From the NCBI GenBank assembly GCA_028876655.1, contig JAGWRA010000025.1:1-53396 (forward strand): a stretch of 53,396 nt of DNA, given 5' to 3'. The notes beneath the pieces were generated by a model. It ran no database searches and had not been told where the DNA came from. It saw only the letters and a program-made list of their open reading frames with translations. Positions 2,703 to 43,766 of the stretch are shown piece after piece; the stretch's first letter is position 1; each line of letters starts with the position of its first letter. Made by a program: the position numbers and the translations under genes. The stretch comes from Acidobacteriota bacterium. Its GTDB lineage: Bacteria; Acidobacteriota; Vicinamibacteria; Vicinamibacterales; CAVVIG01.

Positions 2703-2743
2703 GCGACGGGCGACGGGCTACGGGCTGCGGGCCACGGGCTACG
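2702..2743. repeat. Period-7 tandem repeat (GGCGACG GGCGACG GGCTACG GGCTGCG GGCCACG GGCTACG)
   Basis: Six in-register heptamers read directly, starting at the stop codon of the upstream CDS. Confidence 0.85.
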
Positions 2744-2781
2744 GGGCCCCGAAGTCCGGAGCCGGTAGCCCGACGACTCCC

Positions 2782-25939: not shown

Positions 25940-27562
25940 ATGAGCGCCCGACGCCGCCCGCCGCAGAAGACGACCAGCGCCCCGCCCGCACGGACATCCG
26001 CTTCCGGCCGCACGGCGCGACCGCCCGATCGCCTGCTCGTCGCCATCTGCGTCGTCCTGGCCACGATCGCCGCGACGCTCGTCCGGATCTGGTTCCCCTA
26101 CATCTGGCACGAGTCGGGCACGGCCGCGAGCGCCTTCTACCAGGGCGACACGCGGCCGTTCCTCGCGTACGCCGCCTCGATCGTCGCCGGGCAGCCGTTC
26201 GACAACGGCATCCCGTTCCATCCACCCGGCTGGCCGTTCGTGCTCGCGCTGTTCTACCGGCTGATGGGCTTCAATCCCCTGGCCGGCCAGCCGATCGATC
26301 CGGGCGCCATCAAGATCTTCGTCGCCGGGATCAGCGGTCTGTCGGTCGGGCTGGCGACGCTGCTGGCGGCCGAGCTGGCCGGCACCGGCGCCATGCTGGC
26401 CGTGGCGCTCCTCGGCACCTTCCACTTTGGCCACATCGTCGAGGGGACGACGCCGAACTCGGAGGCGCTCTACGGACTGCTCCTGACGGCGGCGCTGATC
26501 GTGGCGTGGGGCTGGCTGCGGCAGCAGGGACGCGAGGCGGCGCCGGGCTGGCGCGCGCTGGCGCGCCCGCTGCTGCTCGGGGCCCTCTGCGGTTTCGCGA
26601 CGCTCGTGCGCGCTGAGTTCGAGCTGTGCGCCGTGCTGCTGCTGGCCCTCCGCTGGATGCCGGGCCGGCCCCGGCACGGCCGCGTTCCCCAGAGCGCGGC
26701 GTTCGTCATCGGGATGGTGCTGCTGATGACGCCCAGCACCGTCGCCCATTGGCGGAGCCTGTCGGCGTTCAACGCCGCGCACACCACCGGCTTCCCCGGC
26801 CCGATGCCGACCTTCGCGCCGGTGACGAGCTACGGCGGGTTCAACTTCGCGATGGCCAACCACGAGAACGCCGACGGCGGGCCCAACAGCGACCATCCGC
26901 TGCTCGCCACCTGCACGTCGGCCGAATCGGGCGCGCTGGCGCAGGGGCAGCTCGACCTGTCCTGCCCCGGCGTCTACGACCTGTTCGTGCACGGCTACGG
27001 AATCGGCGCGGGCTGGCTGCTGACGCATCCGGCGCGTGCCGCCTGGCTGCTCTGGCGGAAGGCGGTCATGACCTCCGGGGTGTTCGCGCTCGGCTATTTC
27101 GCCGACGACCTCCCCGTCGGCGTCAACGGCACGCGGCGGCGGTCGGACCTGCTCGATCCGGCCGGCCGGCTGTTGTGGCCGATCCACGTGGTGCTGATCC
27201 TGCTGGGCCTGGGGCTGCTGTGGCGGCGGGAGCGGCTGGCGGTGGCGCTGCTGGCGGCGCCGCTCCTCACGCTGGCGGCGTCGGCGCTGGGCTTCTACGG
27301 GTACGTCCGTCTCGGCGTGGCGTACCTGCCCGCGTTCTGGGTGCTGCAGGGGGCGGCACTGGCGGCGATCGCGGATCGGCTGGTGACGTCGGCGCGCATC
27401 CGGCGGCAGGCACCGGCGCTGGTGCTGGCGGCGGGCCTGCTCGGCCTGGCCGCACAGGCGGCGACGGCCGGCGGCTCTCGCACGCTCTCGCTCGACGGCC
27501 CGCGGCGGCCCGACGGGTCGCTCGTGCAGGATGAGACGGTGAGGGTTGTCAGAGAGAAATAG
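25940..27562 (+). CDS. Multi-pass membrane protein, GT39/ArnT-like glycosyltransferase
   Basis: LLVAICVVLATIAATLVRIWFPYIWHESGTAASAFYQGD... FDNGIPFHPPGWPFVLALFYRLMG; multiple TM segments. Confidence 0.7.
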   Translation: MSARRRPPQKTTSAPPARTSASGRTARPPDRLLVAICVVLATIAATLVRIWFPYIWHESGTAASAFYQGDTRPFLAYAASIVAGQPFDNGIPFHPPGWPFVLALFYRLMGFNPLAGQPIDPGAIKIFVAGISGLSVGLATLLAAELAGTGAMLAVALLGTFHFGHIVEGTTPNSEALYGLLLTAALIVAWGWLRQQGREAAPGWRALARPLLLGALCGFATLVRAEFELCAVLLLALRWMPGRPRHGRVPQSAAFVIGMVLLMTPSTVAHWRSLSAFNAAHTTGFPGPMPTFAPVTSYGGFNFAMANHENADGGPNSDHPLLATCTSAESGALAQGQLDLSCPGVYDLFVHGYGIGAGWLLTHPARAAWLLWRKAVMTSGVFALGYFADDLPVGVNGTRRRSDLLDPAGRLLWPIHVVLILLGLGLLWRRERLAVALLAAPLLTLAASALGFYGYVRLGVAYLPAFWVLQGAALAAIADRLVTSARIRRQAPALVLAAGLLGLAAQAATAGGSRTLSLDGPRRPDGSLVQDETVRVVREK

Positions 27563-27565
27563 CTG

Positions 27566-27642
27566 TCAGTCATGAGTTGTGAGTTGTGAGTTGTGAGTTG
27601 TGAGTCATGAGTTATGAGTTGTGAGTTGTGAGTTATCAGTGT
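27566..27642. repeat. Period-7 tandem array (consensus TGAGTTG, about 11 units)
   Basis: TCAGTCA (TGAGTTG)x4 TGAGTCA TGAGTTA (TGAGTTG)x2 TGAGTTA TCAGTGT in strict 7-nt register. Confidence 0.93.
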
Positions 27643-28001
27643 CGAGCACCGAGACGCTGAATCAGGCTGTGCGTCATCCGCGAGATCTGATTTCCTTCAT
27701 CAATCAACGTGCTGACCGACTCGGGTGGCAGTGCCGGAAAGAGTCTCTCACAGAGCTCCAAGCAGGTGACCACCTCTTTGAGTGACCGGTAGGCGTAGGT
27801 CAGGAATCGGGTGAATTCGCCGTTCGTACCGCAGCCTGCACCTTCGGCTATGTTCAACGGCACGGAAGTCGCCGCCCTTCGCAGCTGAGCCGTCAGGTTG
27901 TAGCGCTCTTCCTCGGGCAGCCTGGCCGAGAACTCATAGATCCGAGTCACATAGGCCATCGCCCGCTGCCAGATCTCGAGCTGGTGACAGTCCTGACTCA
28001 T
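27636..28001 (-). CDS. Four-helix bundle protein (S23 / 23S rRNA intervening-sequence protein family), standalone
   Basis: LEIWQRAMAYVTRIYEFSARLPEEERYNLTAQLRRAATSVPLNIAEGAGCGTNGEFTRFLTYAYRSLKEVVTCLELCERL is classic for the family. Confidence 0.93.
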   Translation of the reverse strand: MSQDCHQLEIWQRAMAYVTRIYEFSARLPEEERYNLTAQLRRAATSVPLNIAEGAGCGTNGEFTRFLTYAYRSLKEVVTCLELCERLFPALPPESVSTLIDEGNQISRMTHSLIQRLGARH

Positions 28002-28009
28002 GACGCGAA

Positions 28010-28044
28010 GAACTCAACACTGCGAACTCACAACTGACAACTCA
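28010..28044. repeat. Inverted counterpart of the 27566-27642 heptamer array (5 units)
   Basis: Reverse complement reads TGAGTTG TCAGTTG TGAGTTC GCAGTGT TGAGTTC in 7-nt register. Confidence 0.85.
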
Positions 28045-28063
28045 CACCTGACCGACTTCTCCC

Positions 28064-43655: not shown

Positions 43656-43660
43656 GACAC

Positions 43661-43695
43661 GTCGGACGTCCGACGTCCCACGTCCGACGTCCAGA
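43661..43695. repeat. Period-7 tandem repeat (GTCGGAC GTCCGAC GTCCCAC GTCCGAC GTCCAGA)
   Basis: In-register heptamers starting 5 nt after the stop codon of the upstream CDS. Confidence 0.8.
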
Positions 43696-43705
43696 CCACT
43701 GACGC

Positions 43706-43766
43706 CAGGGACCAGGGAAGAGGGACAAGCAAGGTCTTGCCCCTTTCCCCTTGCCCCTTGTCCCTG
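43706..43766. repeat. Opposed heptamer arrays forming an imperfect inverted repeat
   Basis: Left CAGGGAC CAGGGAA GAGGGAC; right GCCCCTT TCCCCTT GCCCCTT GTCCCTG; AGGGACAAG (43721) pairs with CTTGTCCCT (43757). Confidence 0.75.

Follow-up and report, generated by a model that had tools for sequence, protein, structure and literature searches.

An S23-family gene between inverted heptamer arrays in an Acidobacteriota genome is likely a copy of a widespread mobile element

Do a small gene and the tandem repeats that bracket it form one unit, and does that unit move? The question is raised by an intergenic interval in an Acidobacteriota bacterium, lying within the 53,396-nucleotide stretch of DNA analysed here (the window; contig JAGWRA010000025.1 of assembly GCA_028876655.1), whose genome is referred to as G000. 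The gene (27636-28001, minus strand) encodes a protein of 121 amino acids that an earlier note had placed in the S23 family (23S-rRNA-IVP, four-helix bundle), in agreement with its matches to PF05635 (E 1.2e-30) and TIGR02436. One end of the unit, on the 3' side of the gene, is a direct array of about nine TGAGTTN heptamers (27573-27635, plus strand), and the other, on the 5' side, is an inverted array of about five (28010-28044, minus strand). This bracketing, also claimed before, was recovered by TRF, which reports TGAGTTG at 27573-27634 (period 7, 8.9 copies, score 103) and the second array at 28009-28051, as well as by a TGAGTTN pattern scan, which places the latter at 28010-28044. Recomputation of the 19-bp inverted repeat formed by the inner edges gave the 16 matches previously counted, and reading of the sequence locates the S23 stop codon (TCA on the plus strand, 27636-27638) inside the last heptamer of the 3'-side array, as had been stated. 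The unit is indeed poorer in GC than its surroundings (55% vs 69% window-wide), which ranks it in the lowest 0.7% among 479-bp windows. S23 is the sole gene there, and no catalytic transposase is encoded in the unit.

The complete intergenic interval that holds the unit measures 501 bp (27563-28063, no strand) and was compared with that of G001, a genome of the same genus. On one side lies an open reading frame of 540 amino acids (25940-27562, plus strand) without Pfam or NCBIfam match, so that its former labelling as GT39 is not supported, and on the other a gene with mechanosensitive-channel helices (PF05552; 28064-28771, minus strand). Both neighbours are syntenic in G001 (60% and 69% identity, respectively), where the gap between them is only 147 bp vs 501 bp and contains neither S23 nor TGAGTT arrays. 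A site without the unit, of the kind that the earlier note had suggested looking for, is present in this relative. The G001 gap has short inverted repeats of its own, and taken alone it cannot exclude a deletion. As for the protein, its closest homologues belong to other families of the order (78, 70 and 66%), and within its own genus or family there is no counterpart close to it in similarity. Vertical inheritance of the gene in synteny, which would have refuted the proposal, was therefore not met, given the empty G001 gap and closest homologues outside the family.

Those closest homologues (genomes G030 and G023) lack a 5' array adjoining S23 and carry instead, divergent to it, a gene of 537 amino acids. 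In G030, TGAGTT arrays enclose S23 together with this gene of no known family, the second array standing beyond it (L278 161-2280), and in G023 the same pair occurs twice, with an array on one side only (L276 5223-7230, L277 1-1180). The G030 protein has no Pfam, NCBIfam or PHROG match and no significant PDB relative. Distant homologues of it occur on Rhodococcus and Mycobacterium plasmids, some in several copies. Immediately past the array, the loci L278 158 (minus), L276 7209 and L277 1141 share a hairpin, GATATCAAGGGC...GCCCTTGGCTAG, that varies slightly among them. The arrangement in G030 is possibly a composite or cargo-bearing element, and it invites the idea that S23 units are generally cargo of larger elements and only seem mobile, for which the duplicated pair of G023 could also be quoted. 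We consider this most improbable, since no 537-aa gene adjoins the S23 gene of the window, and filled and empty plasmid alleles, described below, differ by the S23 unit only.

The association between S23 genes and arrays extends well beyond this locus. We surveyed 130 non-redundant S23 genes drawn from relatives, from the class and from named genomes across bacteria plus one archaeon, accepting arrays of period 7, 8 or 9 with a score of at least 12 within 200 bp of the gene, and used as controls 317 flanks of other open reading frames within the same loci. An array was present on at least one side of 85% of the S23 genes and on both sides of 52%, as compared with 9% of the control flanks, some of whose matches are themselves S23-type arrays of period 7, 8 or 9; the remaining 15% of the S23 genes show no array at this threshold. 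Because the sample was picked by protein similarity and score, these percentages cannot be taken for the family as a whole. Among S23 genes with double arrays (n = 88), the pair is inverted in 79 and direct in 5, and the period is 7 in 70, 8 in 13 and 9 in 5. Left and right units resemble each other more within a locus than between loci (0.62 vs 0.43), and the unit sequence differs among nearly all loci. The arrays that the earlier note had proposed to seek within 200 bp of S23 homologues are there, mostly inverted and matched in unit, and the other outcome that would have refuted the proposal, homologues generally without arrays, did not occur. S23 gave no match in phage records.

How far the protein dictates the unit is less clear. 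Unit similarity tracks protein identity only above about 60% (Mantel p = 0.055), hence specific recognition of the unit by S23 is not demonstrated, and on the same grounds we rejected the idea that each protein lineage strictly recognises one fixed unit. The period of the unit does cluster on the protein tree, with 13 changes vs 17.3 after shuffling and none of 200 shuffles as low, on a quick tree with weak support. Some loci have peculiarities of their own: period-9 arrays stand beside the S23 genes of L086, L091, L092, L102 and L204, a hydrophobic stretch is found at the protein end in L091, L101 and L102, and in L226 (1630-1920) two heptamers, GGTGACA and GGGAACA, are interleaved in one array.

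Within G000 itself, dispersal was gauged by pattern searches and limited stretches. The pattern TGAGTTNTGAGTTNTGAGTT (TGAGTTN, at most two mismatches) has 151 matches, compared with 43 for the reversed control and 5 in G001, an abundance that exceeds chance, and GGCAATN has 87 (control 0), with none in G001. Both families are scattered across the genome without S23, and G000 thereby holds dispersed arrays of the STRR-like kind, that is, tandem 7-bp units at many genome places. Its four S23 genes each lie inside inverted arrays of their own, different unit: TGAGTTN in the window, GGGCAAT on contig C18, ACGGGCT on contig C270 and a degenerate GGC-rich unit on contig C245. The window contains further arrays without a gene, namely an ACGGGCT array (2704-2745, plus strand) with the unit found around the S23 gene of C270, a GGACGTN array (43659-43692, minus strand) and an inverted pair of AGGGANN type (AGGGACCAGGGAAGAGGGACAAG ... 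CTTGCCCCTTTCCCCTTGCCCCTTGTCCC; 43706-43765, no strand). GGACGT adjoins the only S23 gene of G001 and is dispersed in both genomes, with 46 matches in G001 and 44 in G000, yet none of the four G000 S23 genes carries it, which indicates that arrays can outlive or lack their gene. A further genome, G018 (87% complete), has 117 TGAGTT matches, and neither of its two S23 genes shows a TGAGTT unit. Many array sites in G000 are inverted pairs without a gene, for which folding gives long hairpins (z -5 to -8). We regard such gene-less pairs, which make up at least part of the dispersed G000 heptamer arrays, as non-autonomous, MITE-like forms. The reversed control TGCAGGN turned out to be strongly dispersed in other genomes (132 matches in G021, 39 in G023), pointing to further heptamer families.

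The best evidence for mobility comes from cyanobacterial plasmids and not from the lineage of the window. Six plasmid sites occur in two states, one filled with an S23 unit and one lacking it, and they include positions within cas, nrd and tra operons. Between nrdB and nrdA, a unit is present in Nostoc edaphicum and missing in Calothrix NIES-4105; between two secretion genes, it is present in Calothrix PCC 7716 and missing, again, in NIES-4105. The site after a traM-like gene is filled in Nostoc C052 and N. edaphicum and empty in Nostoc C057 and UHCC 0926; in ATCC 53789 it holds a pair of arrays that lacks S23. Between cas6 and cas4, two different S23 units occupy the junction in Anabaena sp. 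90 and Pseudanabaena galeata, Nostoc UHCC 0302 is empty, and Dolichospermum UHCC 0315A, with 99% identity outside the junction, bears a different repeat, GTAGGTTGGGTT ... AACCCAACCTAC (L228 1320-1560); judged by these alleles, the junction appears to be an insertion hotspot. The reported CRISPR association of the '23S rRNA IVP' (PMC10910872) may simply reflect insertions such as these. In one plasmid operon, the A-B junction is occupied by a unit in three plasmids and the B-C junction, in a fourth, by a different one; at least five empty copies of each junction are available.

In the filled and empty plasmid pairs the S23 unit alone makes the difference between alleles, and the inserts start and stop at or near the arrays, which in their inverted orientation supply the terminal inverted repeats expected of MITEs. 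The borders are not fully regular: the B-C insert extends about 40 bp past the array on its right, and the alleles at tra and nrd point to small deletions. There is no consistent target duplication either; TTCTA stands on both sides at the A-B site but resembles the unit, and elsewhere there is none or at most 1-3 bp. Besides, presence and absence cannot always separate gain from loss. A nested case is found in Nostoc 'Peltigera membranacea cyanobiont' N6, whose A-B unit, otherwise 97% identical to the ATCC 53789 copy, has a 182-bp insertion inside the S23 reading frame. The insert is made up of a filler and, on either side of it, inverted TCAGAAG/TCAGGAG-type arrays that match in kind those of the element it interrupts; what could be a target duplication measures at most 1-2 bp. 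By this comparison, a gene-less array pair is mobile too.

These sites also bear on a reading in which nothing moves along, the arrays being regulatory or structural sites (operators, terminators or RNase III substrates) that grow by slippage and are bound by S23. Array lengths do vary, arrays do stand at gene ends, and a regulatory role has been proposed for the TAACTGA repeats (PMC4679880). Such a reading is nonetheless very unlikely in view of orthologous sites that lack both gene and arrays, of the plasmid operon whose A-B and B-C junctions carry unlike S23 units, of the gene-less pair inserted inside a reading frame in Nostoc N6 and of units that differ between nearly all loci. The simplest form of it, the unit as a plain product of slippage, was rejected on the filled and empty sites.

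We propose the name S23-heptamer element for such units. Association, inversion, dispersal and presence or absence at orthologous sites, including that of a gene-less pair, rest on comparison of sequences; on this support, and with no movement observed experimentally, the element is very probably mobile. The inference of the earlier note that the flanking repeats and the protein form one unit is in turn supported by the array survey, the G001 gap, the plasmid sites and the nested insertion. As to the feature in the window, it is likely one autonomous copy of a mobile element found widely, in which inverted arrays with a unit of 7 bp (in some cases 8 or 9 bp) enclose a single S23 gene and lie at or near the element's ends.

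This anatomy has precedents. The intervening sequence (IVS) in the 23S rRNA of Coxiella burnetii, of about 430 bp, has an S23p reading frame with tandem GACAGAT heptamers upstream of it, its ends form an inverted stem of 28 bp, and RNase III cuts it (PMC4990558); mobility of IVSs with the reading frame as a component was proposed, as far as the citation in that paper tells, by Ralph and McClelland (1993). An S23 reading frame inside complementary ends is common to both, and the predicted fold of the window-unit transcript, in which the arrays pair and leave the reading frame in the loop (z -3.3), would form the corresponding stem-loop. The window unit differs in being intergenic, in its heptamer and in belonging to a genome-wide family with gene-less copies. 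An Rfam search of the window found no rRNA and no other family, consistent with what had been noted, and since the unit lies outside an rRNA gene it is not an IVS despite the shared anatomy.

Dispersed heptamers are likewise on record. GGGAATC arrays in Xanthomonas and GGGGAYT arrays in Nostoc are tandem, intergenic and dispersed, in Xanthomonas they are often paired in inverted orientation (70 and 75 such pairs), and in general no link to mobile elements was seen, S23 being unmentioned (PMC4692102). We find that the orthologues of XCC0516 in Xanthomonas are flanked by inverted arrays of GGGAATC type, the published unit (L104-L107). TAACTGA direct repeats were described in Beggiatoaceae, Cyanobacteria and Bacteroidetes with no evident transmission mechanism and, again, without mention of S23 (PMC4679880); they share with our element the dispersed heptamer arrays, and TCAGTTA-type units flank S23 genes elsewhere, e.g. 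in L162. In the literature searched, which left out preprints and subscription journals, no link between S23 and dispersed heptamer arrays was found. S23-heptamer units probably explain the scattered 7-base arrays reported in many bacteria.

The resemblance to REP/BIME sequences with RAYT and to MITEs lies in a gene-bearing unit within inverted repeats accompanied by many gene-less inverted pairs. The S23 unit differs from them in having arrays of 7-9 bp and not a fixed palindrome, in lacking a consistent target duplication and in lacking an HUH/Y1 or any other transposase; no cognate transposase was found, gene-bearing units encoding S23 only, or S23 and an unknown gene. A host single-strand transposase (Y1/RAYT or IS200 type) might still move the array pairs in trans, with S23 as regulator or passenger. 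The analogy with REP/RAYT biology speaks for it, and Y1_Tnp (PF01797) is present in 65 of 82 S23 genomes vs 17 of 44 others (p = 1e-5), an association that may reflect genome plasticity only. We consider this unlikely, however: neither the unit nor G000 as a whole gave a match to a Y1 (REP-associated tyrosine) transposase (PF01797), even though G000 has several dispersed array families; 17 S23 genomes have no Y1, 9 of them with no RT either (some are drafts that may miss genes), and one would not expect a mere passenger to recur between arrays of this kind across so many phyla. Y1 as the mover was accordingly set aside, as associated with S23 and absent from G000.

Structure prediction raises another possibility. 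The model of the window protein (pLDDT 95.5) matches XCC0516 (2GSC, TM 0.90), which is described as a homopentamer (PMC4990558), 2RLD (0.77) and Avd of diversity-generating retroelements (DGRs; 4DWL, TM 0.78), along with the RT-Avd ribonucleoprotein. The likeness of PF05635 to Avd had been noted earlier (PMC10053308) and was also stated for S23-family proteins in the earlier note. Like Avd, S23 might serve as cofactor of a reverse transcriptase (RT) that copies the RNA of the element into new sites; besides the fold, the compact folding predicted for that RNA would suit this retro-mobility. Unlike a DGR, however, the unit has no RT, template or variable repeat; none of these stands beside S23, and the sole RT detected in G000 lies on a different contig (C251). 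RT (PF00078) occurs in 28 of 82 S23 genomes vs 14 of 44 others (p = 0.84), and in 54 S23 genomes none was found, including the single-contig G021 with its 10 S23 genes. Retro-mobility is thus improbable, and RT-driven movement was rejected for want of any genome-level association between RT and S23 (126 genomes).

With no transposase in the unit, no RT association and no Y1 in G000, we favour S23 acting on the array hairpin together with host copying, a mechanism that is inferred and remains tentative. The S23 pentamer, with its Avd fold, would bind the array when this is folded as a hairpin, in RNA or single-stranded DNA, and may help the replication or repair machinery of the host to copy it into new sites. 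Targets could be chosen through short homology to the unit; TTCTA at the A-B insertion resembles the unit end, which would be in line with annealing of this kind. In transcripts the stem could fold, and RNase III may cut there as it does in rRNA intervening sequences, so that an operon could tolerate the insertion.

Should a transposase-less mechanism be confirmed, the S23-heptamer element is a class of its own, with an anatomy already known from rRNA intervening sequences. In its broadest form, a claim that we hold to be evenly poised, these elements are a separate class of mobile DNA, about 0.5 kb long and bounded by inverted tandem arrays. Each lineage would rewrite the unit, the element would encode one nuclease-less, pentameric nucleic-acid-binding protein and spread by way of host replication or repair, and both the rRNA intervening sequences and the heptamer arrays dispersed in many phyla would be its products. 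Binding of S23 to the arrays and mobility of the unit are directly testable in laboratory strains. If our reading is true, a very common family with solved structures and no known function would gain a role and a genomic rule, S23 would tie together the 7-base arrays of Xanthomonas, cyanobacteria and giant sulfur bacteria, which have no known mover, and the long-debated rRNA intervening sequences would be placed in a wider class.
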